Shown here piece after piece: positions 11,867 to 45,831 of a stretch of 47,725 nucleotides of DNA. Within the stretch, counting starts at the first letter, position 1. Each line of letters begins with the position of its first letter. The position numbers were made by a program, and so were the translations under genes. This DNA comes from an uncultured Acidobacteriota bacterium (GTDB taxonomy: Bacteria; Acidobacteriota; Thermoanaerobaculia; Multivoradales; SZUA-115): assembly GCA_937867335.1 (NCBI GenBank), contig CALMKX010000337.1, forward strand, positions 1 to 47,725, given 5' to 3'. The notes beneath the pieces were generated by a model that saw only the letters and a program-made list of their open reading frames with translations, was not told the DNA's origin and did not search any database.

Positions 11867-14800
11867 TCACTTCACCTTCAGCCGAAATTCGGCGTCGCCG
11901 TAGAGCAGATAGTTCGGCCAATCCTGAGTGTCGAGGATGCCCTGGCGCGCCGCCTGAAGAGCCGTGCCGAGGGTCTTGCCGTCGAGGATCTGGCGATAGA
12001 AAGTCGTGGCGAAGGTTTCGGCGGCCTCGTCCCCCACGGGCCAGTAGGTGCCCAGGAAGTTCGCCACTCCGCCCAGCAGGAAAGACTCCGCAAGGCTCAC
12101 GGCCGCCTGCAGGTGCTCGTCCCGGCTCTTGGCCCCCGCCTTCTCCTTGGCGCCGCCGGCCGCCGCTTTCTCCGGCTGGAACTGCCCGGGAGCGAGCCGG
12201 CGCACCCTGCCGGATTCGCAGGCGTTGAAGAACACCAGGGCCGGCAGCTTGGCGATTTCCGCCAGGTCCGCCCCGGTGACCGGCTCGTAGCCGGCGGCGA
12301 GAATGCCGCTCTGCTCCCGGTTGGCCGGTTCGAAGAAAGCGTGGCCGGCATAGTGCACAACGTCGTAAAGGCCGGAGCCGAGCTCCTCGATCAGCTTCTT
12401 GCGCGTGGCGTCGGCGCCCGAGATCACGGTCAGCCGCTTGCCGTGTTGGTCTTTGAACAGGCTCTTGATGCGCTCCCCCTCCCGGGTGGCTCCGGGCAGG
12501 TCTCCCGTGGGGTTGACCACCAGCAACACCTCCAGGCTGGAGCTCCAGACCCTTTCGGTGAGCCACTTCGCCACCGAAAGCTGCTCGGCGTCGTAGCGAT
12601 GGGAGAGCCCTTCGTTCTCCCGCGCCGGGAACCACAGCTCACCGTCCGGCCCGTGGAGCGCCAACGTCTCCCACGGCACTCGGGACATCGCCGCATCGTG
12701 CACCACCACCAGCGGGCTGCCCTTGAGCCGGCGCAGCACCTCGAGCACCGACGGCGAGAGCAGCAGCTTCCCGAGCTCGGCACCGTCGCGCGCAAAGTCT
12801 CGCGCTTCGGCCTGGGTGAGCCGGGCGAGCAGGTTCAAGGCCTCGCGGCTCGCCACCTGGGCCCGGCCGGAAACCACAGCTGCCTTGCCCTTGCCGCTCG
12901 GGGGCAGCACTGAGGACACCACTTCCACCACGTCGTCGCGATCGAGATCTCCCAACTGGCGGGCGATCAGGTAGGTGGGCTGCTGCTTGGGCAAGGGGAC
13001 GGCCCTCGCGCCCGCCTCACCGCCTCGGCTTTCGCGCAGCTTGCGCTCGTCGAAGGTGATTTCCACCTCGCTCGCAAGTTCGGTGGTGGCCAGCCGAACC
13101 AGCTCCCGGCGCAGCACCTGGAAGCGCTCCGGGTCTCTCTCGCAGATCACCACCCGACGGAAGAAATGGTCGCGGTCGGCGTCGAGCAGCCCGCGCACGA
13201 AGCCCAGAAGCAGGTTGCGCAGGGCCCCGGCGGTGTTCTCCACCGAGCTGCCGCCGAGTACCACGGTGGAGAACTCCTCCACCCGGGCGAGCACGAACGT
13301 GCGCAGCATGTTCTCGGCCACCGTCTGCAGCACCTCGGAGCTGAAGCCATCGAAGGGGCCGAGACCGACGAAGGCGATCAGGTCCGCCGAGAGCTCGTGG
13401 CGGCCGGTCGGCAGCACGAAGATCTCGCCGATGTTGGCGGAGAGCATGCGCCGGCGAGTGAGCTCGGTGATGGTTCCGCGCATGCGCTCGTCGAGGGCCC
13501 TGGCGGCCCCTGTCGGGTCCACTCCGCGGAAGATCCCCAGGGCCACGGCCCGGGTGTCGGCCTCGGTGATCGAGCCCAGGGCCAGCTGAACGTCCAGCCG
13601 GTGCTGGCGCCGCCGCCCCACCACCACCTGGTCCAGAGTGTGCTCGAAGCTGCCCGCCCCCGCTCCTGGATGAGGCTCGCCGGGGGCCACGGCAGGGGCC
13701 TCGGGCGCGGGCGTCATCGGCGCCGCGAACTCGCGCACCAGTTGGCGCAGCTCGCTCCTCGTGAGCGGGGCTCCGCGGTCGATCGGCAGCTCGGCAGCCA
13801 GACGATGCTCCGGCACACGGCGAGTGGCGGCGCCACGCGTCGCGGGCCGCGTCTGGGATAGCAACTGGGTGGTGCCATGGCCGAGCAGGTCGATCACCGC
13901 CTCCTCCACCTCCACGTGGTTCGGCAGGCTGCCGTGCTCGGCCTCGACGTACCAGGTGCGGGGAGCGATCGCCGGCAGCAGGCACATGGCGAGCGGCACG
14001 GTGCCGTCGCCGTCCTGGCTCTCCTCGTAGACGAACTCCCCGCTCGCGTCCCGGCTCAAGCCGGTGACCGTCTTCTGGTTGACTCCGGCGATCAGGTAGA
14101 AGTTCTCGCCCGCCAGGGGCAGGGTCTTCTGGACCGCTTCCACCTTGGCCAGGATCTCCTTGCGCGGGGCGAGGCCGTCCGCCGGCCAGTTACCGAGGTC
14201 GAAGAGGTCGATCGCCGAGTAGGCCTCGCGGGTGGGCAGCATCTCGGTCAAGCCCGGAAAGGTGTTGAAAACGTTCTCCACCAACCAGGCCACGTCGTGC
14301 TTGCGGTCGAGCCGGGCCACCGTGCGCACCACCGAGTTGACGCCGCGCAGGGCCTTGACCGGGGCGAAAGAGCCCAGGTTGGGAGTGCCCAGCATGATCA
14401 GTCGCTGGAAGAGGGCGCCCTGGGCGGCCGCCGAGCGGCAGACCAGCCCGCCCATGCTGTGGGCCACCAGCTGCACCTTCTCACCGTCCTCCTCGGCGAT
14501 GCGTTGGGCGAGCTCCCGGCCGAGCTCCGGGATGCTGCGCCGCCAGTCGAAGGGGTGGAAGGAGGCGTTGAAGCCGGACAGGCGCAGCTTCCACTTGAGC
14601 CGGGCGTAGGCGAACTGCAGCACGCCGAGCGCCTGGATGTCGACTCTCGAGCCCAGGGCGAGGTCCCCCAGGCGGCCGGCGAGGATATCCACCGGGTCGA
14701 GCCAGAGGGTGTCGTCGAAGTCCTTGCCCTTGCGCCCCAGTGTGGAGCCCATGATGCCGGGCAGGATCAACACTCGTGGCCCGCCGAAGAGGCGGCGGGA

Positions 14801-15052
14801 GCCCGCCTTCCAGGCCAGATCGCTCAGTTCGCGATAGACCTCCGGGCCGAAATAGTCCTCGAGAAGCTCACGGTGGGCGCCAGAGAGCAAGGCCTCGTCG
14901 AGCGCTTCCTCGCTCAGCCGGTACTCGGCGAAGGCCGGCTCGAGCCCGGGCTCGGTGGGCATCGCTGCCGCTTCCCCTGCCGCCTGCGGAGCGGCTGTCG
15001 CAGCAACGGCAGCCTCACGTCGGCGAGGAGCGGGCTTCTTGGCGCGGGTCAT
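11867..15052 (-). CDS. Lipase (LCAT-like alpha/beta hydrolase) fused to a C-terminal CHAT caspase-like protease
   Basis: The 1,061-residue protein combines at least three parts. Residues ~90-395 are an alpha/beta hydrolase of LCAT/lipase type: oxyanion-type LPGIMGSTL (97-105), nucleophile Ser199 in VAHSMGGL, Asp349 in DGDGTVPL and His373 in AEHGSLPNH give a complete candidate triad. Residues ~483-610 resemble the macro-like N-terminal domain of M17 aminopeptidases (IGEIFVLPTG, FVGLGPFDG, VAENMLRTFVLA). Residues ~780-1061 are a CHAT domain: VPWETLAL, His900/His904 in VVHYAGHA, Cys945 in FFNACESG, then GGVANFLGTYWPV and the NYLLYGD end. The first 35 residues are basic and Ala-rich without a clear signal peptide, so it is probably cytoplasmic. 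No obvious partner gene is adjacent. Family knowledge: CHAT peptidases act in programmed-death and defence modules. That role here is inference. Confidence 0.85.
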   Translation of the reverse strand: MTRAKKPAPRRREAAVAATAAPQAAGEAAAMPTEPGLEPAFAEYRLSEEALDEALLSGAHRELLEDYFGPEVYRELSDLAWKAGSRRLFGGPRVLILPGIMGSTLGRKGKDFDDTLWLDPVDILAGRLGDLALGSRVDIQALGVLQFAYARLKWKLRLSGFNASFHPFDWRRSIPELGRELAQRIAEEDGEKVQLVAHSMGGLVCRSAAAQGALFQRLIMLGTPNLGSFAPVKALRGVNSVVRTVARLDRKHDVAWLVENVFNTFPGLTEMLPTREAYSAIDLFDLGNWPADGLAPRKEILAKVEAVQKTLPLAGENFYLIAGVNQKTVTGLSRDASGEFVYEESQDGDGTVPLAMCLLPAIAPRTWYVEAEHGSLPNHVEVEEAVIDLLGHGTTQLLSQTRPATRGAATRRVPEHRLAAELPIDRGAPLTRSELRQLVREFAAPMTPAPEAPAVAPGEPHPGAGAGSFEHTLDQVVVGRRRQHRLDVQLALGSITEADTRAVALGIFRGVDPTGAARALDERMRGTITELTRRRMLSANIGEIFVLPTGRHELSADLIAFVGLGPFDGFSSEVLQTVAENMLRTFVLARVEEFSTVVLGGSSVENTAGALRNLLLGFVRGLLDADRDHFFRRVVICERDPERFQVLRRELVRLATTELASEVEITFDERKLRESRGGEAGARAVPLPKQQPTYLIARQLGDLDRDDVVEVVSSVLPPSGKGKAAVVSGRAQVASREALNLLARLTQAEARDFARDGAELGKLLLSPSVLEVLRRLKGSPLVVVHDAAMSRVPWETLALHGPDGELWFPARENEGLSHRYDAEQLSVAKWLTERVWSSSLEVLLVVNPTGDLPGATREGERIKSLFKDQHGKRLTVISGADATRKKLIEELGSGLYDVVHYAGHAFFEPANREQSGILAAGYEPVTGADLAEIAKLPALVFFNACESGRVRRLAPGQFQPEKAAAGGAKEKAGAKSRDEHLQAAVSLAESFLLGGVANFLGTYWPVGDEAAETFATTFYRQILDGKTLGTALQAARQGILDTQDWPNYLLYGDAEFRLKVK

Positions 15053-15136
15053 CGGCTTGGCTCCTTTTCGAGGTGGCTGCCCCGGAGCCCTTTCGACCGG
15101 GAGGGGGCGCGTAGCCGTTCTTGCTTGAGTGTGAGT

Positions 15137-28640: not shown

Positions 28641-29105
28641 ATGAGCATCATGACCCTGGACTCGGCTTCTGTTGGTCGCCTGAAGAACATTGCCGAAGAA
28701 GTGCTGGCCGCATTCCTCGAGGCCGCAGCGCCTGGTGTCCCGGACCCGAAGCTCGCTCTCACTATCTTCGAGTGGTGCATCTTGCTGACCCTCAAGCACG
28801 AGCTGCCTGGGGACTTCCTCCTCGACGTATGGGAAGGCAGTTTCGCCCAATGGGAGAAGCAGTCTCCTCCTTGGTACGAAGGCCCAGACTCAAAGCTCTA
28901 CGGCGCGGCAAAGTCGGGAGCGATCGAGCATGCTCAGGAGGTTGGGCGTAGAGCACTGAAATTCGCCTCGATAGACGAGCCAGGGAGCGAGACTCCTCGG
29001 CTGACGGGTGAGCACTTCCTGCGAGCGCACTCCGAATTCCTCGCGAAGAAGCAGCTCGAGGGTAACTGCTCGTTCTTCTGCAACCCTGCACCCTCGGCGA
29101 AGTGA
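28641..29105 (+). CDS. Unrecognised 154-residue protein with a C-terminal two-cysteine tail
   Basis: I do not recognise this family. The ATG at 28641 follows GGGGGTAAG, a good ribosome binding site. The protein is mainly helical, with an Ala/Leu-rich start (LKNIAEEVLAAFLEAAAPGVPD), a hydrophobic middle (LALTIFEWCILLTLKHELPGDFLLDVWEG), a Trp/Tyr-containing segment (WEKQSPPWYEG) and a short end, GNCSFFCNPAPSAK, with paired cysteines. There is no signal peptide. Codon choice seems less GC-biased than in the flanking genes and the preceding gap is unusually long, both consistent with later acquisition. It lies 16 bases before the kinase gene, so they are probably co-transcribed and might work together. 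A precursor-peptide-like role for the tail is only a possibility. Confidence 0.7.
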   Translation: MSIMTLDSASVGRLKNIAEEVLAAFLEAAAPGVPDPKLALTIFEWCILLTLKHELPGDFLLDVWEGSFAQWEKQSPPWYEGPDSKLYGAAKSGAIEHAQEVGRRALKFASIDEPGSETPRLTGEHFLRAHSEFLAKKQLEGNCSFFCNPAPSAK

Positions 29106-29121
29106 GGCTGAGGACTGTCGC

Positions 29122-31716
29122 GTGACGATCCGACGGGCTCTGGAAGCGACTCTCGCCGGGCTGGCGCTGATCAAGTGTCTCTTGGCCGCGGCGGGGTTCT
29201 TCGTGGGTACGCCGACCGAGTTGGTGACCCCTCGCCCGGTTCAGCTGCTGTTGATCGCCAGCTTCGCTGGAGTCGGGGGGTTCCTGCTCCACGGCGGCCG
29301 TAAGGACCCGCGAGCGTCGTTCCTCGGTATGTCTTGGTTGCTGACGGGCGCAGCCTTCAGCAACGAGTTCTTGAAACATCTCCAGGGAGTGGCCGGGGCC
29401 TCTCTTGGCGCAGTCTTCCTTGCTCTGCGCCGAGTGGATGTCCCGGCCTTCCTTCCCCTGTACCTGACGCTCTTTGCTACCTATTTCCCCGAGTCGCCGC
29501 AACGACTCGGCCGAACCCATCGGCTGATCCTCTGGCTGCTGGCGGCGATCGGTGGCTTGATGTTTCTGGTTCCGTTCCTGGAGGAGTCCGAGCGCGGTCC
29601 GATCCTGGGAAGGGTCGCGAACTTCTCTACGGCCGGCCTCCAGTACGTGCTCTGCCTGGTACCGATTCTGGTGGCCTACTTCCGCAAGAGGCCCGTGACT
29701 CTCGCCGAGAGTCGGCGCGGCCGCCTTTTTCTCGCCTCGATCTTCGTCGGTGCAGCACCGGTGGCCGTGTGCCTCATCCTCGAGTTCAGCGTGCCCGCGT
29801 TCAGCCCCTTCATGCTCGACACGCCTCTGGGGCGAACGGTCGGAGCTCTCGCCACTCTGAGTCTCGCCACCATCCCTTTCACCACCACCTACTCGGTGGT
29901 GCGGCACAAGGTTCTCGATGTCAAGCTCATCGCTCGCAAGGCCTTGCAGCACTTGCTCGCGCGGTTCACGGTGGCGATCCTGACGCTGGCGCCGCTAGGG
30001 GGCTTGGTCGCTTTCCTGGTCACGAACCGGGATCAGACCCTTACCCAACTCTTCAGCGGGCCGAGCTTCTTGATCCTCGCCCTGCTCACCGGCGCCGGAC
30101 TCGTCGGCCTCCGGAGTCGCGAGGGGATTCTGCGTTTCGTGGACGTGAAGTTCTTCGCCGAGCAACACGCTTCCTGGGAATTCCTGGGCCAGCTGGCGAA
30201 GGAATTCCGCCTGTCCAGCACCACCGCCGAGCTGGCTCGGGACATCGCCAACGGCATCGACCGTGCCCTGCATCTCGAAACCGTGGCGGTGCTGGTTCAC
30301 AGTCGGAAAACCGGCCGCCTGGTCGATCCGGCCGAGCAGTGCCAGCCCTTCGACCCGACCTCGGAGCTCGGCAAGCTCGCCTCGGCCAATCACGCGCCGC
30401 TCGAAACCGACCTCACCGACCCCAACACTCCGTTGAAGAGCCTGCCGGAGGAGGATCGCTACTGGATCGCCGACAACCGCTTTCGCCTGCTGGTGCCCTT
30501 GTCGAGCATGGACGGTTCGCTCTTGGGCTTGATCGGCCTCGGCGAACGCCGCAGCGGTAGCCCCTTCCTGGCCGAGGACCTCAAGTTGCTCGACACCCTG
30601 GCGGATTCGGCCGCCATCAAGCTCGAGTTGCTGCTGATGCACGAGAACGAGCTGCCGGACCAGCGGCCGCCCACACTCCCGGCCAACCCCGACGAGCATC
30701 TCCGACCGGCCCGTGAATGCGTTCGCTGCGGCACCGCCCTGTCGCCGGAAGCCCTTTCCTGTGGCCGCTGCGACAGACCGACCGAGCTGCAGGAGGCGCG
30801 GGTACCCTACATCTTGCCAGGACGGCTCCGCTTCCAGCGGCGCATCGGCTCAGGTGGGATGGGCATTGTCTACCTCGCCATGGACCTGAAACTGGGAACC
30901 ACCCGCGCGGTCAAGACGCTGCGGCGAGTCTCTCCCGAGGATAGCGTGAGGCTGCAGGCCGAAGCGCGAATCGCCGCGGCGGTGACCCATCCGAACCTCG
31001 CCACCGTGTACGGTATCGAGTCCTGGCGGGGAACTCCGATGCTGATCCTCGAGCACCTGCCCAACGGCACCCTGCTTCAGCGCCTGTCGCGCAAACCCCT
31101 GGGGCTCTCCGAGACATTGCGCCTGGGCCTTGCCATCACGGGCGCCGTGGAGCGGCTGCACGATCACGGCATCCTTCACCGCGACATCAAGCCCAGCAAC
31201 ATCGGCTTCGCCCAGGACGAAACCCCCAAGCTGATGGATTTCGGCATCGCCCGGGTCCAGGTGGATCCGCGGCGAGACGGCGGCTCGGACCGGCGCTCCC
31301 TGCCCGCCGACGCCGCTGCAACGCCCACCATCTTGTGGACTCGGCGCGGTCCCAGCCGGGCATCGCAAAAGCTGATCGGTACGGTTTCCTATCTGCCGCC
31401 CGAGGCGTTTCGAAAAGGTTTCGAAGCGGACCCGAGCACCGACCTCTGGGCGCTCTGCCTAGTGCTCTACGAGTGCCTGACCGGCGAACAGGTCTTCACC
31501 GGCGACGAAATCGGCAAGATCATCCAGGACATCCGCAAGGGCGTGCCGCCGCTCGAGGAGATCTGGCGCGAGGCGGAGCTACCGCTCTGTCAGTTCTTCG
31601 AGCGCAACCTGGCGAGCGATCGCGCGCGCCGGGCTCCCACAGCTTCCGCGCTGATGCGAGAGTTGCAGCGCCTTAGCAGCAGCCTGCAGGCGGACGACCG
31701 GCAGGCGGTGAACTGA
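29122..31716 (+). CDS. Membrane sensor-type Ser/Thr protein kinase (multi-TM, GAF, zinc ribbon, kinase)
   Basis: The 864-residue protein starts at the GTG at 29122. Residues ~10-330 contain about eight hydrophobic segments, ending in VVRHKVLDVKLIARKALQHLLARF, a segment like the link after the 7TM sensor of bacterial histidine kinases. Residues ~350-505 look like a GAF domain. A zinc ribbon follows with Cys533, 536, 547 and 550 (CVRCGTAL, CGRC). The C-terminal kinase domain has GSGGMG (576-581), Lys598 in AVKTL, HRDIKPSN with Asp688, DFG at 706-708, and YLPPEAF in place of APE. All catalytic residues are intact. The usual bacterial order is kinase first and sensor outside; here a histidine-kinase-style sensor is joined to a Hanks-type kinase. 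Substrates unknown. It follows the orphan gene by 16 bases. Confidence 0.88.
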   Translation: MTIRRALEATLAGLALIKCLLAAAGFFVGTPTELVTPRPVQLLLIASFAGVGGFLLHGGRKDPRASFLGMSWLLTGAAFSNEFLKHLQGVAGASLGAVFLALRRVDVPAFLPLYLTLFATYFPESPQRLGRTHRLILWLLAAIGGLMFLVPFLEESERGPILGRVANFSTAGLQYVLCLVPILVAYFRKRPVTLAESRRGRLFLASIFVGAAPVAVCLILEFSVPAFSPFMLDTPLGRTVGALATLSLATIPFTTTYSVVRHKVLDVKLIARKALQHLLARFTVAILTLAPLGGLVAFLVTNRDQTLTQLFSGPSFLILALLTGAGLVGLRSREGILRFVDVKFFAEQHASWEFLGQLAKEFRLSSTTAELARDIANGIDRALHLETVAVLVHSRKTGRLVDPAEQCQPFDPTSELGKLASANHAPLETDLTDPNTPLKSLPEEDRYWIADNRFRLLVPLSSMDGSLLGLIGLGERRSGSPFLAEDLKLLDTLADSAAIKLELLLMHENELPDQRPPTLPANPDEHLRPARECVRCGTALSPEALSCGRCDRPTELQEARVPYILPGRLRFQRRIGSGGMGIVYLAMDLKLGTTRAVKTLRRVSPEDSVRLQAEARIAAAVTHPNLATVYGIESWRGTPMLILEHLPNGTLLQRLSRKPLGLSETLRLGLAITGAVERLHDHGILHRDIKPSNIGFAQDETPKLMDFGIARVQVDPRRDGGSDRRSLPADAAATPTILWTRRGPSRASQKLIGTVSYLPPEAFRKGFEADPSTDLWALCLVLYECLTGEQVFTGDEIGKIIQDIRKGVPPLEEIWREAELPLCQFFERNLASDRARRAPTASALMRELQRLSSSLQADDRQAVN

Positions 31717-39026: not shown

Positions 39027-42000
39027 CTACGGCGTGCAGGCGGAAACCGAGACGTTGTCGAGGAACCAGCCGTCACCGGTCACCGAGCAGTCGCTGATGG
39101 TGGTGAAGGCGATCCGCACCGACTTGCCCGCGCAGCCGCCGGTGTTGCCGGCGATGGCGTTGCAGGCGGCGTCGAGGTCCACCGTGGTGGTGGAGAAGGC
39201 GGTGGCCGTGCCGGTGAAGATGGCCGTGCCGGCTGCGCCGGCCGGCGGGCAGCTGGCCGAGACGGTGCCGTTGTAGGTGGTGCCGGAGAGGATCGCCGTG
39301 GCCGGCACGAAGGTGTAGTTGGTGCCGTCGGTCGAGATGGCGAGGGTGCCGCCGTCGAAGCCGCTTTCGAAGTCCCGGCGGTGGCTGAAGGTCAGCCGCG
39401 CGGTGGTCGAGCCGGCGGGGATGGTGATGCCCGTGGCGCCGTTGGGCTGGGCGAAGTTGAAATCGTTGCTGACGTAGTCGGTGGTGCAGGCCGTGCCGCC
39501 GAAACGGAAGACGTTGGCACCGCTCGCCGCCGTGCAGGCCTGCACGCCACGCCAGTCGGTCACGCTGCCACCGGAGACAAAGGTGCCGCGGGTCCAGTCC
39601 GAGAGGCCGGTGGCGGCGTCGAAGTTGTTGTTGTAGAGCGTGGTGGTGGTGCAAGTGCAGGTGTTGGTGGTCGCCGAAGCCTGGGCCGAGTTGGCGGACT
39701 CGCAGGTGGCGCTGTTGGCCGCGCGCACCACATAGAAATAGGTGGTGTTGCAAGCGAGGCCGGTATTGACGAACGAAGTCGTGGTGGAGGTGCCCACCTG
39801 GGTGTAGGGGCCGCCCGAGGTGGTGGAGCGCAGGATGTGGTACTCGGTGGCACCCGCCACCGCCGTCCAGGACAGGCTCACCTGAGTGGCACCGCCGGTG
39901 GCCGTGAGCCCGGTGGGAGCACCCGGAGGCGTGCAGGTTCCCACCGAGGGCGTCACCGAAACGCACACCGAGGGCGCACCGGCGCAGGCCTCGTTGCCGC
40001 TCGGGTGGGCCACCACCTGGTAGAAGTAGGTGGTGCCGTTGCCCACGGCGTTATCGGTCGCCGAGGTCGAGGTGGAGTCGTTGGCGATCTTGGTGAAGCC
40101 AGCGTTGCAGCTGCTCTCGTTGCGGTAGAGGTCGTAGACCACCCCGGCACCGCTCGAGGTCCAGCTGGCCGAGACCGTGTTGTTGCCACCGGTGAGGGTG
40201 AGCGCCGGCGTGGCCGAGGGCGTGCAGCCGGCAAAGGTGAGGCTCGCGCCGGCGTCGCTGGAGCAGGCGATGTTGTGACGATTGAAGGCCGCGAAGATCG
40301 CTCCGCCGTGGGGCGTGCCGTCCGCCAGGTTGCCGTTGTCGTCGTCCACCGCCCGCATGGCCCGGAAGTAGGAGCCGGTCAAGCAGCCGTCCGAGGTCCA
40401 GGTCGCCACCGAGGTGTTGCACTGGAAGCCCGAGGTGGCCGTGGAACGGGAGAGGTACCAGAGGCGGTCGGTGGTGGACCAGGCAGCCCCGGTCCCGGGG
40501 CTCGGCAGATCGCGGTTGGCGAGGTCCCACAGCGCTTCCGAGGACACGTAGGACTCGCAGTGCCCCTCGCGCTTGTTGGCCGTGTTGCCACGGGCGATCG
40601 CGTCCTTGCCGCAGGGGCCGACGTAGTTGGGATTGTTCGCCGACGGCAGCGGGCAGCGGGCCTGGATGAAGTTCGGCACGGTATGAGGTGTGTTCGAGGT
40701 GTGCTTGGCCCAATCGATGTCGCGCACACCGGTGCAGCTGGTGCAGGCGTCGCCGTTGCCGGTGCAGTTGGTGGTGCGGAAGCCGGGGCCGATGCAGGAG
40801 CTGTGGGTGGCAAGAGCCGCCGTGAAGTCGCCGTAGGTCTCGCCGGTGCCGTTGTCCGCCGAAGAACCGTTGCCATCGTTCGAATCCAGGCCGTGGCCGT
40901 ACTCGTGCAGCGAAACGGCTGCAATCTCGCCGGTGTTGCCGCAGCCACCGCCTGACTTGAAGAAGTTGAGCGTCGAGCCGTTCCAGTAGGCGTTGCAGGT
41001 CTGGTTCAGGTTGACGTTCACCGTCAGCTTGGCGCTCAACCAGGCGTTCGAAGGCAGCCAGCCGCGGCCCACTTCCTTCGAGCGGTTGACATGGTAGAAC
41101 TGGGTCCGCGAAGCATGGGTGTTGCCCGCACCGCCGCTACCCGGAGTGGTGCAGTCCGTGCCGGTCGAGGTGCCGAGGGCGATCGCTCCGGTGGCGTCGG
41201 CCGCCTTGCTGATCGTGCCGCAAGTATCGGAAATCGCCACATATTGGCCGTTCAGCGTGGTGGTGCCGGTGGTGCCCGAGAACAGACCGGCCGAGTTCGC
41301 GAACACGCCCGTCGCCACGTTGGCGAAGGGCATGGCGCGCACGACCTCCGCCCCCACCGAAGGCGATTGCGGGTAGGCTCCACCGGTGACCTGCCCATAT
41401 TCGTTGCGATCGTAGAACTCCACCACCTGCCCGCTCACGGCATCCACCCGGCCGAGCCAGGTGCCGAGTTCGCCGGGGCGGTTGAATTCGAACTGCCACA
41501 CGGCGGCCACTTCGCGACCCTGGCCCAGCAAGAAGCCCTCAGCAGCCGCCGCGCTGGAGATCGAAGCCGGCAAGTAGTGCAGCCCGCCGCGGTCCAGCCA
41601 CTTGTCGCCAGGGGCGAAGCCGCCCAGGTAGTCGCCCAGAGCCCGATAGGCTTGCTCCTGCGCGACGCGGATCACCGGCAGCTTGGCGCCGGGGGCCGGT
41701 AGGTTCTCGGTGCCGAACTGGATCAGGTTGCCGTGGTTCACCCGGAACACCACGCGGGCACCCTCGATCCGCTTGCCACCGAGCGCCACATCGAAGTCGA
41801 CAAACCAGACGTTGGGCGAGACCTCTCCGGAGCGGCCGCGGTTGAGCACCAGGCTCAGGCCATCGAGGCCGAGTAGAGCCGAGACCTGCGGCACGAAGCC
41901 GCGGGCAACTTTCTCGAGCGTGCCGAGGTCCACGCCGGTGCCGCTCCTCAAGCCCGGAGCGAGGTCCTGCGGCGTGAGCGAATTGCCCCGCCCGGGAATC

Positions 42001-42308
42001 CAGGGGATGCCGGCTCCCTCCGCGTACTCCAACCGACCCGTACGGCGGTCGACGTACGCTTGCCACTCGCCACTGGCCACCAGGCGGAAAGCCGCCCAGC
42101 CATCGCGAACCGTCGGTGCCAGGCTGCTCTCGAGGTTGCCGAGCAGGTCGATGGCGGGATGGGCGACCAGCCTGCCATCCACGATCGAGCGCTCCGCCAG
42201 CCCTCTCGAGGGCGCGCTTGCTTCCTGAGCCAGGCTGGCGCTCGCGCTGCTCAGTGCCACGAGACACACGAGGCTCGAGGCGATCCTTCGAACACCTACT
42301 GCTTTCAT
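39027..42308 (-). CDS. Secreted M36 (fungalysin)-like zinc metallopeptidase with fibronectin type III domains
   Basis: The 1,093-residue product has a signal peptide (SLVCLVALSSASASLAQEA). Residues ~30-330 form a propeptide-like region with FTP-type repeats (FRVNHGNLIQFGTENLP). The zinc site is HEYGH at 468-472 with a second-helix Glu490 in GTGETYGDF, matching the HExxH...E layout of M36. Several cysteines around the catalytic domain suggest disulfides. Residues ~730-915 are two fibronectin-type-III-like domains (second: PPGAPTGLTATGG...YHILRSTTSGGPYTQVG). Residues ~945-1093 are a beta-rich C-terminal domain with FESGFDGGTLAISTDG. The ATG has AAGGAGG nearby, and -10 TACAAT lies about 90 bases upstream. 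It is a tandem paralogue of the next gene. Confidence 0.85.
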   Translation of the reverse strand: MKAVGVRRIASSLVCLVALSSASASLAQEASAPSRGLAERSIVDGRLVAHPAIDLLGNLESSLAPTVRDGWAAFRLVASGEWQAYVDRRTGRLEYAEGAGIPWIPGRGNSLTPQDLAPGLRSGTGVDLGTLEKVARGFVPQVSALLGLDGLSLVLNRGRSGEVSPNVWFVDFDVALGGKRIEGARVVFRVNHGNLIQFGTENLPAPGAKLPVIRVAQEQAYRALGDYLGGFAPGDKWLDRGGLHYLPASISSAAAAEGFLLGQGREVAAVWQFEFNRPGELGTWLGRVDAVSGQVVEFYDRNEYGQVTGGAYPQSPSVGAEVVRAMPFANVATGVFANSAGLFSGTTGTTTLNGQYVAISDTCGTISKAADATGAIALGTSTGTDCTTPGSGGAGNTHASRTQFYHVNRSKEVGRGWLPSNAWLSAKLTVNVNLNQTCNAYWNGSTLNFFKSGGGCGNTGEIAAVSLHEYGHGLDSNDGNGSSADNGTGETYGDFTAALATHSSCIGPGFRTTNCTGNGDACTSCTGVRDIDWAKHTSNTPHTVPNFIQARCPLPSANNPNYVGPCGKDAIARGNTANKREGHCESYVSSEALWDLANRDLPSPGTGAAWSTTDRLWYLSRSTATSGFQCNTSVATWTSDGCLTGSYFRAMRAVDDDNGNLADGTPHGGAIFAAFNRHNIACSSDAGASLTFAGCTPSATPALTLTGGNNTVSASWTSSGAGVVYDLYRNESSCNAGFTKIANDSTSTSATDNAVGNGTTYFYQVVAHPSGNEACAGAPSVCVSVTPSVGTCTPPGAPTGLTATGGATQVSLSWTAVAGATEYHILRSTTSGGPYTQVGTSTTTSFVNTGLACNTTYFYVVRAANSATCESANSAQASATTNTCTCTTTTLYNNNFDAATGLSDWTRGTFVSGGSVTDWRGVQACTAASGANVFRFGGTACTTDYVSNDFNFAQPNGATGITIPAGSTTARLTFSHRRDFESGFDGGTLAISTDGTNYTFVPATAILSGTTYNGTVSASCPPAGAAGTAIFTGTATAFSTTTVDLDAACNAIAGNTGGCAGKSVRIAFTTISDCSVTGDGWFLDNVSVSACTP

Positions 42309-42639: not shown

Positions 42640-45600
42640 TTACGGCACGCAGGCGCTCACGGCCACGTCGTCGAGGAACCAGCCGTCACCGGTCACCGAG
42701 CAGTCGGTGATCGAAGTGAAGGCGATCCGCACCGCCTTGCCAGCGCAGCCACCGACGTTGCCGGCAATCGCGTTGCAGGCCGCGTCGAGGTCCACGGTGG
42801 TGGTGGTGAACGCAGTGGAAGTACCCGTCCACACCGAAGCTCCGGCGGAGCCGGCCGGCGGGCAGGAAGCTGCGATCGTGCCCGTGTAACCGCCGGCGAC
42901 GATCGCCGAGCTCGGAACGAACGTGTAGTTCGTGCCGTCCGTGGAGATCGCCAGCGTGCCGCCGTCGAAGCCGGACTCGAAGGCCCGACGGTGCTTGAAG
43001 GTGAGGACGGAGCTGGTGGAGCCGGCCGGGATGGTGATGCCGCCCGCGCCGTTCGGCTGCGCGAAGTTGAAGTTGTTGTTGGTGTAGTCCGCGGTGCAGG
43101 TGGTGCCGCCGTAGCGGAAGATCCGCGTACCGGAGGCCGCCGTGCAGGTCTGGACGCCGCGCCACGTCGTCGTGGTACCGCCGGCCACGAAGGTGCCCCT
43201 CGTGAAGCCGTCGAGGCCCGAAGCCGCGTCGAAGTTGTGGTTGTACAGCGTGGTGTTGGTGCAGATCGGGCAGGTCGCCGTGGTGGCCGAAGCCTGAGCC
43301 GAGTTGCCGGACTCGCAGGTACCGCTGTTGGCCGCACGCACCACGTAGAAGTAGGTCGTGCCGCAGGCCAGGCCGGTGTCCGTGAAGCTGGTGGTGGCCG
43401 AAGTGCCCACCTGGGTGTACGGGCCGCCCGAGGTGGTGGAGCGCAGGATGTGGTACTCCGTGGCGCCCGAGGAAGCCGTCCAGCTGAGGCTCACCTGGTT
43501 GGTGCCGCCCGTGGCCGTGAGGCCGGTGGGGGCAGCCGGAGGCGTGCAGGGGCCGGAGGTCGGGGTCACCGACAGGCAGGCCGAGGGCGCGCTGGCGCAG
43601 GCCTCGTTGCCGGTCGGCTGAGCGACGGCCTGGTAGAAGTAGGTGGTGCCGTTGGCCACGCCGCTGTCCGTGAAGGTGCCGGCGCTGTCGTTGGCGATCT
43701 TGGTGAAGCCGGCGTTGCAACCCACCTCGTTGCGGAAGACATCGAAGACGCCCGTGCCGCTCACGCTCACGCCGACCGAGTTGTCGCCCGCGGTGAGGGT
43801 CAGGGTCGGAGCTGCCGACGGAGTGCAGCCGTTGAAGCAGGTGTTGGCGCCGGCGTCGGTGGTGCAGGCGATGCCGTGGCGGTTGAAGGCGGCGAACAGG
43901 TTGCAGGAGTGCGGCGTGCCGTTGGTCAGGTTGCCGTCGTCGTCATCGGCTGCGCGCATGGTCTTCCACCAGGAGCCGGCGTTGCAGCCGTTCGAGGTGA
44001 AGGTAGCACCGGTGGTGCAGCTGAACGAGCTGGTAGCGGTGGATCGGGAGAGGTACCACAGGCGATCGGTGATGGTCCAGGCCGAGCCGGTGCCCGGGCT
44101 GGGCAGGTCGCGGGCAGCGAGGTCCCACACGGCCTCGGAGGGCACGTAGGACTCGCAGTGCACTTCCTTGCCGCAGGGGCCGGAGCCGGCGCCGCAGCGA
44201 ACCTGGGTGTGGTTGGCGACGGTGGCCGCCACCGCACTCGCGTGCTTGGCGAAGTCGATGTCGCGAACGCCGGTGCAGGCGGTGCAGGCGTTGCCGTAGC
44301 CACCGCAGTTGGTGGTCAGGAAGCCGGGGCCGATGCAGGAGTTGTGGAGGGCCAGAGCGGCGGTGAAGTCGCCGTAGGCCTCACCGGTGCCACCCTCCGG
44401 GGCGGTGCCGGTGCCGTCGTTCTGGTCGAGGCCGTGGCCGTACTCGTGGAGCGAAACCGCGGCGATCTCACCGGTGTTGCCGCAGCCGCCGCCCGACTTG
44501 AAGAAGTTCAGGCTGGAACCGTTCCAGTAGGCGTTGCAGGTCTGGTTCAGGTTGACGTTGACCGTCAGCTTGGCAGCCAACCAGGCGTTGGAAGGCAGCC
44601 AGGCGCGGCCCACTTCCTTGATTCGGTTGACATGGTAGAACTGGGTGCGGGAGGAGTGGGTGTTGCCTGCGCCGCCACCGGTGGCCGGGATGGTGCAGTC
44701 AGTGCCGCCGGAGGTGCCGAGGGCGATGTTGCCCGCTGCGTCCGCGGACTTCGAGATGGCGCCGCAGGTGTCGCTGATGGCCACGTACTGGCCGTTCAGC
44801 GTGGTGGTGCCGGTAGTGCCGGAGAACAGGCCGGCCGAGTTGGCGAACACGCCGGTCGCCACGTTGGCGTAGGGCATGGCACGCACCACTTCGGGGCTCA
44901 CGGTCGGGGACTCGGGGTAGACGCCGCCGGTGACCTGACCGTAGTCGTTGATGTCACGGAAGTCGACGACGCGGCCGGTCGAGGCATCGACCCGGCCCTG
45001 CCAGGTACCCATCACGCCCTTGCGGTTGAAGGCCACGTCCCAGACGGCCAGGATGCCGCGGCCGTTGGCGAAGTCGTAGCTGTCGGCGCCGTTCAGGGCC
45101 GGCACGTAGTGCAGGGTGCCCGAGTTGACCAGCTTGTCGTCCTGGCCGAAGCCACCGATGTAGGACGCCACGGCGTTCCGGGCCCCTTCCTTGTCGATGG
45201 TGACCACCGGCAGGACGGAGGAGGACGGCGGCAGGAACTCGGTGCCGAACTGAATCAGGTTGCCGTGGTTGACGCGGAAGATCACTCGCGCGTTGTCGAT
45301 CTTCTTGCCATCCTTGAGAACTTCATACTCGACGAACCAGAGGTAATCGGACGGCTGGCCGGACGCGCTCTTGTTGATGCGCAGCTGGTAGCCCTCGAGA
45401 CCCATGAGCGAGGTAACCCGCGGCAGGAAGTCGCGGGCGATCGCGTCCATGGTGATGAGGTTCGGCTTCGTGGCGCCATTCAAGAAACCCGAGATGTCAT
45501 TCTGCGTAAGCTTGTTGCCACGGCCCGGAATCCACGGGATGCCAGAGCCCTCAGCGAAGGTGAGGCGGCCGTTGCGCGGGTCGACGTAGCCCTGCCAGGA

Positions 45601-45831
45601 GCCGCTCTGACCCAGCTGGAAGGCCACCCAGCCGTTGGCCACGTCGCTCTCGACCTGGCTCTGGACGCTGCTGAGCAGCACCGCGTCGGCCCGGACCTGG
45701 AACCGCTCGTCCATGAGCACCAGCGAGCTCAAGGCGCCGCTGCGCTCGGGGGCACGCTGCGCGAAAGCCGCGCCACTGGTGGCGACGGCCAACAAGCAGA
45801 GTGCGACGATGATCCTCCGAATCGTCAACAT
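42640..45831 (-). CDS. Secreted M36 (fungalysin)-like zinc metallopeptidase, tandem paralogue
   Basis: This 1,063-residue protein has the same plan as its neighbour: signal peptide (LCLLAVATSGAAFAQ), propeptide-like region, HEYGH at 462-466 with Glu483 in GTGEAYGDF, cysteine-rich catalytic domain, two fibronectin-type-III-like domains and a C-terminal beta-rich domain. Long stretches are almost identical in the catalytic part (ANVATGVFANSAGLFSGTTG, KLTVNVNLNQTCNAYWNG) while the propeptides differ more. The two genes are therefore a tandem duplication that has been kept and diversified at the N-terminus. The start ATG has GTAGGAGG upstream. Family knowledge: M36 enzymes degrade extracellular proteins; here FN3 domains may bind cell-wall or polysaccharide material. 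Exported role is inferred. Confidence 0.86.
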   Translation of the reverse strand: MLTIRRIIVALCLLAVATSGAAFAQRAPERSGALSSLVLMDERFQVRADAVLLSSVQSQVESDVANGWVAFQLGQSGSWQGYVDPRNGRLTFAEGSGIPWIPGRGNKLTQNDISGFLNGATKPNLITMDAIARDFLPRVTSLMGLEGYQLRINKSASGQPSDYLWFVEYEVLKDGKKIDNARVIFRVNHGNLIQFGTEFLPPSSSVLPVVTIDKEGARNAVASYIGGFGQDDKLVNSGTLHYVPALNGADSYDFANGRGILAVWDVAFNRKGVMGTWQGRVDASTGRVVDFRDINDYGQVTGGVYPESPTVSPEVVRAMPYANVATGVFANSAGLFSGTTGTTTLNGQYVAISDTCGAISKSADAAGNIALGTSGGTDCTIPATGGGAGNTHSSRTQFYHVNRIKEVGRAWLPSNAWLAAKLTVNVNLNQTCNAYWNGSSLNFFKSGGGCGNTGEIAAVSLHEYGHGLDQNDGTGTAPEGGTGEAYGDFTAALALHNSCIGPGFLTTNCGGYGNACTACTGVRDIDFAKHASAVAATVANHTQVRCGAGSGPCGKEVHCESYVPSEAVWDLAARDLPSPGTGSAWTITDRLWYLSRSTATSSFSCTTGATFTSNGCNAGSWWKTMRAADDDDGNLTNGTPHSCNLFAAFNRHGIACTTDAGANTCFNGCTPSAAPTLTLTAGDNSVGVSVSGTGVFDVFRNEVGCNAGFTKIANDSAGTFTDSGVANGTTYFYQAVAQPTGNEACASAPSACLSVTPTSGPCTPPAAPTGLTATGGTNQVSLSWTASSGATEYHILRSTTSGGPYTQVGTSATTSFTDTGLACGTTYFYVVRAANSGTCESGNSAQASATTATCPICTNTTLYNHNFDAASGLDGFTRGTFVAGGTTTTWRGVQTCTAASGTRIFRYGGTTCTADYTNNNFNFAQPNGAGGITIPAGSTSSVLTFKHRRAFESGFDGGTLAISTDGTNYTFVPSSAIVAGGYTGTIAASCPPAGSAGASVWTGTSTAFTTTTVDLDAACNAIAGNVGGCAGKAVRIAFTSITDCSVTGDGWFLDDVAVSACVP

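Follow-up and report, generated by a model that had tools for sequence, protein, structure and literature searches.

Why should a bacterium encode a lipase and a caspase-like protease in a single polypeptide? The question is raised by a 47,725-nucleotide stretch of an uncultured Acidobacteriota bacterium (contig CALMKX010000337.1; this whole stretch is called the window below), which carries on its minus strand a complete open reading frame (ORF) of 1061 residues (11867..15052), starting with ATG at 15052 and ending with a stop at 11867. A Shine-Dalgarno sequence, AAGGAG (15061..15066, minus strand, by sequence reading), is followed 8 nt downstream by the ATG. The encoded protein consists of a lipase, a macro-fold domain of the M17 N-terminal type (M17N), and a CHAT protease. 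Our results show that these three domains constitute one conserved, co-inherited unit; the protein probably acts in stress or self-destruction under the control of its protease. As a specific mechanism we favor, at little short of an even chance, a cytosolic single-chain phospholipase that is gated by CHAT and attacks the cell's own membrane.

All three domains scored above the curated gathering cut-offs of Pfam against which the matches were judged: LCAT (PF02450) with 27.7 bits (cut-off 21) over residues 167-238, Peptidase_M17_N with 33.2 bits (cut-off 23.4) over residues 505-621, and CHAT (PF12770) with 125 bits (cut-off 24, E 4.7e-36) over residues 757-1045. We constructed a structural model from 89 sequences (predicted local distance difference test [pLDDT] 84.6, predicted template modeling score [pTM] 0.64), which superseded an earlier 9-sequence model that was too weak in the CHAT part (pLDDT 61). 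The longer disordered stretches in the 89-sequence model are residues 1-33, 447-482, and 953-984. Residues 90-392 matched lysosomal phospholipase A2 (4x97; Z 27.6, root mean square deviation 3.0, 294 aligned), Tle4 (4r1d; Z 26.7), and LCAT (Z about 25), and residues 482-661 matched leucine aminopeptidase N-domains (Z 19.5-20); in a search with the first model, the M17N-type domain also matched macro domains (Z 18-19). The C-terminal part resembled separase (Z 24.9, about 300 aligned), Csx29/TPR-CHAT (Z 21-23, best 23.3), and gingipains (Z about 20). A sequence search of solved structures returned weak matches for the lipase (best E 0.066), and PADLOC returned for the 1061-residue protein only weak CHAT matches and a partial match to BovA of Borvo (E 2.2e-7), limited to 96 of the profile's 711 positions in the region of the CHAT active site. 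We rejected M17 aminopeptidase activity, because only the N-domain matches and CHAT stands in place of the C-terminal metallopeptidase domain.

Fold likeness alone is no proof of function, but fold and conservation taken together support the prediction that both enzymes are intact. An earlier note, made from the letters of the window, had proposed Ser199, Asp349, and His373 as a lipase triad, a macro-type N-terminus of M17 aminopeptidases at about residues 483-610, and a CHAT site of His900/His904 and Cys945. The full-chain model is in agreement with most of this. The LCAT/lysosomal-phospholipase-A2/Tle4-like alpha/beta hydrolase covers residues 90-394 (13871..14785, on the minus strand like every feature of the protein given here), so that the predicted hydrolase fold falls where the note had placed it (residues 90-395). 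Ser199, in AHSMGG (14456..14458), sits at a nucleophile elbow in the model and is present in 67 of 68 aligned full-length cores; Asp349, in GDG (14006..14008), and His373 (13934..13936) are present in all 68. The count for Ser199 is partly ascertainment, as one of the two search patterns, AHSMGGLV, contained this residue; the remaining four residues (Asp349, His373, His904, and Cys945) were not selected for. The macro-type domain is confirmed and spans about residues 483-661 (13070..13606). In the CHAT domain (residues 745-1061, 11870..12820; clan CD, separase/Csx29-like), His904 (12341..12343) and Cys945, in NACESG (12218..12220), are invariant (68/68 each) and surrounded by strands in a caspase-type arrangement, whereas His900 occurs in only 59 of the 68. 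His904 rather than His900 is therefore the likely catalytic histidine, with Cys945 as the likely catalytic cysteine. Both active sites are kept at 22-50% identity.

The hydrolase is preceded by a helical lead (residues 34-89, 14786..14953) that is conserved across the window's clade and retained in lipase-only relatives; no signal peptide was recognized in it by eye. Between the hydrolase and the macro-type domain lies a linker (residues 395-482, 13607..13870) with a length of 47 to 129 residues over 69 rows, and residues 662-744 (12821..13069), which hold the beta hairpins and the initial helices of the protease, are poorly conserved. The disordered loop that follows Cys945 (residues 953-984, 12101..12196) is the longest of the set and may be a self-processing loop.

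Could the combination be a chance fusion or an assembly artifact, as the note had allowed? About 70 proteins, distributed over many bacterial phyla, share the domain order, several of them from named isolates (Mycolicibacterium, Azotobacter, Thauera, and Bradyrhizobium among them), and we rejected this explanation, whose probability is now negligible. A scan of genome contigs yielded at least 80 loci. Sorted with purpose-built domain profiles on mechanically called ORFs, the relatives comprise a SHORT form, lipase-M17N-CHAT (n = 21, including the window and one duplicate record), a LONG form, DUF7379 hydrolase-lipase-M17N-CHAT-TPR-S (n = 50), and a LIPONLY form, the lipase alone (n = 21, a few truncated by contig ends or frameshifted). 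The window's genome has a single copy of the lipase-M17N-CHAT architecture besides other CHAT proteins, and related lipase-CHAT proteins occur in several genomes of the same order. Another genome of this order encodes a SIR2-CHAT fusion (L049:5978-8287).

In the lipase tree, obtained from a short search with no bootstrap, the window falls into a clade with support 100 that is made up of 16 LIPONLY rows and 8 SHORT rows, one of which is its own; we refer to it here as clade A. The CHAT tree likewise places clade A on one side of a branch (97) and the short-B proteins on one side of another (85), and nearly does so for the LONG forms. The two trees thus share their main groups, indicating that the domains were inherited together. 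LIPONLY rows occupy more than one place in the lipase tree, which points to repeated loss (or gain) of M17N-CHAT. The closest relatives of the window protein by sequence belong to Nitrospira and Desulfobacterales (lipase 51-53% identity), while a genome of the window's own family (G002) holds a short-B protein, so that the pattern is patchy. Matches at E 1e-20 were obtained in 5 of 297 Acidobacteriota genomes, and copies lie on plasmids of Rhizobium, Paracoccus, Azotobacter, and Ensifer; the phage collection contained no homologue.

The best evidence that the lipase and the protease form a functional pair comes from relatives in which the protease has been exchanged. On a Qingshengfaniella plasmid, a similar lipase is fused to Trypsin_2 and has no M17N or CHAT match (L141:6842-9364); the trypsin module has matches in many plasmid-borne proteins that carry the annotation DNA/RNA non-specific endonuclease (e.g. 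L145:2950-5217). On a Streptomyces plasmid, the gene for an NB-ARC (STAND) protein with CHAT overlaps a lipase gene by 4 bp (L144:775-6263), which looks like an NLR-type two-gene system, and in Anaerolinea a lipase gene and a caspase gene are neighbors, 13 bp apart. Recombination of the lipase with trypsin, NB-ARC-CHAT, and C14 proteases favors an effector-protease pairing.

The same recurrence of unrelated or separately encoded proteases weighs against the idea that the chain holds parallel effectors, in which CHAT, together with an upstream caspase in LONG forms, would cut other proteins and the lipase would act independently under the same sensor, or in which the upstream caspase would activate the chain. 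This idea draws on three observations: a caspase gene is immediately upstream in 20 of the 50 LONG forms; a Planctomyces lipase-M17N-CHAT protein carries an extra PLD domain C-terminal to CHAT (L096:7806-13070), suggesting stacked effectors; and M17N-CHAT-TPR-S proteins also occur without the lipase (L050 and L051). We consider it rather unlikely.

The note had suggested a cell-death or defense role, and the gene neighborhoods of the relatives bear this out in part. Among 96 adjacent same-strand ORFs, a set to which about ten caspases were added through a caspase-profile search, we counted Peptidase_C14 in 26, TIR_2 in 8, TPR-S in 3, patatin in 2, and ThsB_TIR in 2; PADLOC assigned 22 neighbors as caspase and also gave ThsB and ThsA matches. 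MoxR and vWA were absent from the top 25 neighbor families listed for the relatives. A TIR gene lies within 2 kb of 10 of the 50 LONG forms, and 26 of the 50 have either a caspase or a TIR neighbor; the same holds for 2 of 11 short-B ORFs. One Nitrospira locus encodes on a single strand a caspase, a TPR-S-patatin protein, a lipase-M17N-CHAT protein, and a DUF4062 protein (L059:4334-12727), and DUF4062 proteins have been reported as TIR-like NADases of antiphage defense (PMC13174449). We also observed an Azotobacter chroococcum locus with a caspase, a LONG form, and a TIR gene, behind which comes another LONG form, divergent and arranged in tandem (L103:1135-14416), and a Rhizobium plasmid CHAT protein, whose match begins at the M17N part, with large TIR-domain proteins on both sides (L147:1047-13842). 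A broader proposal would make the whole group a widespread immune family of phospholipases gated by CHAT in cis, a lipase counterpart of the gasdermin-protease and nuclease-protease systems, with M17N (and, in LONG forms, TPR-S) sensing a nucleotide signal made by partner TIR proteins; we regard this as doubtful.

The defense suggestion is weakened for clade A, the window's own. The 80 neighboring ORFs of this clade include 9 LysR genes (OxyR-like by eye), 4 AhpC/TSA genes, and 5 acyl-CoA dehydrogenase genes, with hardly any PADLOC matches. At nine clade A loci (L062, L065, L068, L071-L074, L077, and L093), most of the lipase genes are located directly behind an OxyR-like LysR gene, and many gammaproteobacterial members adjoin an OxyR-like gene and are without macro-CHAT; the clade A lipase is possibly a peroxide-stress phospholipase. 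An exception is a SHORT copy on a plasmid of Rhizobium leguminosarum GLR17 (WP_168302769.1; 44.5% identity over the lipase-M17N query), which is followed by genes for SIR2-pYEATS and DNA/RNA non-specific endonuclease proteins.

At the window itself, the note had seen no phage-defense neighbors, and we likewise saw no close defense neighbors among the window ORFs scanned. The genes nearby encode a CxxCxxCC protein, an HD-domain protein, and a TPR/FG-GAP protein, as well as, by sequence reading, FYDLN-type, folK-like, and LON-type proteins. No MoxR or vWA genes were present among the scanned neighbors, no OxyR or AhpC gene was recognized beside the lipase-CHAT gene, and no CRISPR components were seen among the neighbors, beyond which no search for them was made. 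Within the subset of window ORFs that was scanned, we detected no TIR (ThsB) gene and, there or in the 1061-residue protein, no gasdermin domain. With a GC content of 69.4% and 88.9% at third codon positions (GC3), the gene matches its neighbors in composition, and recent acquisition was rejected on this basis. The HD gene is retained, at 67% identity, in genomes of the same family. Its counterpart on the opposite flank was not found in them, and therefore no clean empty site could be demonstrated.

These data make a role in lipid stress a serious rival for the window's clade, although on balance still an unlikely explanation. In such a role, the lipase would do housekeeping by removing damaged (for instance peroxidized) acyl chains, and CHAT would only trim, turn over, or regulate it, with no suicide function. 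The OxyR-like and AhpC/TSA neighbors of several lipase-only genes fit this, as do the full-length protein L062, which is also encoded behind an OxyR-like LysR gene, the lack of caspase or TIR neighbors in clade A, and the native composition of the window gene. Opposed to it are the window locus, with neither of the peroxide-response genes recognized, the SIR2-pYEATS and endonuclease genes behind the Rhizobium plasmid member, and the sporadic distribution.

How, then, might a CHAT-gated phospholipase operate? In the resting protein, the lipase would be inactive or kept off the membrane. The macro-type domain, or in the LONG form TPR-S together with partner caspase or TIR proteins, would sense a stimulus and switch on CHAT. 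The protease might then cut the linker at 395-482, which is flexible, or the 953-984 loop within its own domain, or might act through a rearrangement. The freed lipase would deacylate the cell's own phospholipids, and the resulting membrane damage would kill or arrest the stressed or infected cell. Control of the lipase by CHAT, attack on the own membrane, sensing by the macro domain, cleavage, trigger, and toxicity or death are all steps that we infer. For this mechanism we count the fixed domain order, the conserved sites, the co-inheritance, the fold matches (to phospholipases, Tle4 among them, and to the proteolytic switch enzymes Csx29 and separase), the neighbors of the relatives, the recombination with other proteases, the patchy spread, and the precedent of proteases that turn on nuclease proenzymes in antiviral systems (PMC12799240).

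Several observations count against it. The neighbors at the window locus are of a housekeeping type, and the gene's composition is native. None of 26 clade A ORFs has a caspase or TIR neighbor; the difference from the LONG forms is significant in a Fisher test (p 1.2e-6), a statistic that ignores relatedness among the loci. Clade A apparently lost macro-CHAT more than once while the lipase was retained, so that the clade A lipase apparently does not need CHAT. The 395-482 linker is poorly conserved in sequence, and hence no cleavage site is evident. The cell-death interpretation is thus weaker for the window's own clade.

Elsewhere in the window, two adjacent large ORFs of similar length on the minus strand (39027-42308 and 42640-45831), each with an fn3 domain, are possibly a tandem duplication. 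The ORF at 29008-31716 encodes a GAF and Ser/Thr kinase protein with strong matches to PADLOC kinase models, which probably reflect generic kinase similarity.

The note had named no characterized system with the order lipase-macro-CHAT, and our literature searches found no published description of this architecture; the single-chain family is undescribed as far as the literature searched shows. If the proposed mechanism is true, a single gene gives bacteria of many phyla an enzyme that destroys membranes and brings its own caspase-like switch, and protease-gated cell death would extend from gasdermin pores and nucleases to lipases. The mechanism also supplies a functional hypothesis for proteins now annotated merely as "CHAT domain-containing protein," and the existence of lipase-only relatives beside an OxyR-like gene allows a stress enzyme to be compared in nature with a suicide effector.

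Among known systems, bacterial gasdermins occur with CHAT or caspase-like proteases that are thought to release the membrane-attacking effector; here no gasdermin domain was seen in the protein or in the window ORFs scanned, and the membrane would instead be attacked by an enzyme that shares its chain with the protease. The lipase fold and the Ser-Asp-His triad recur in lysosomal phospholipase A2, in LCAT, and in the type VI secretion lipase Tle4, but these are secreted or injected and are not fused to a protease. Type IV Thoeris couples TIR signaling to caspase-like effectors, and in Thoeris TIR signaling also reaches macro-domain effectors (see below). Some LONG relatives adjoin TIR/ThsB-type genes, and the chain combines a macro fold with a caspase-fold protease; in contrast to Thoeris (PMC11204291 for the macro-domain effectors), no TIR was seen among the window ORFs scanned, and the macro-type domain of the chain belongs to the M17N class. 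Csx29/TPR-CHAT of type III-E CRISPR (Craspase, PMC9729208) has the same CHAT fold and His/Cys dyad but operates under an RNA-guided complex. The idea of a protease-gated effector is already known, because activation of nuclease proenzymes by proteases is experimentally established in antiviral bacterial systems (PMC12799240) and caspases are paired with alpha/beta hydrolases in the predicted MoxR-vWA-VMAP conflict systems (Kaur et al. 2020, PMC7159879). The nuclease-protease pairs and canu caspase-nuclease loci likewise encode the protease with its effector, and the relative L141 carries a trypsin, but theirs is a separate nuclease proenzyme gene with tested cleavage, whereas ours is a same-chain lipase predicted from sequence. 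The MoxR-vWA-VMAP pairs couple a caspase-superfamily protease to an alpha/beta hydrolase in putative immunity; there, the hydrolase is a separate neighboring gene of a ternary system, and here both enzymes reside in a single chain.

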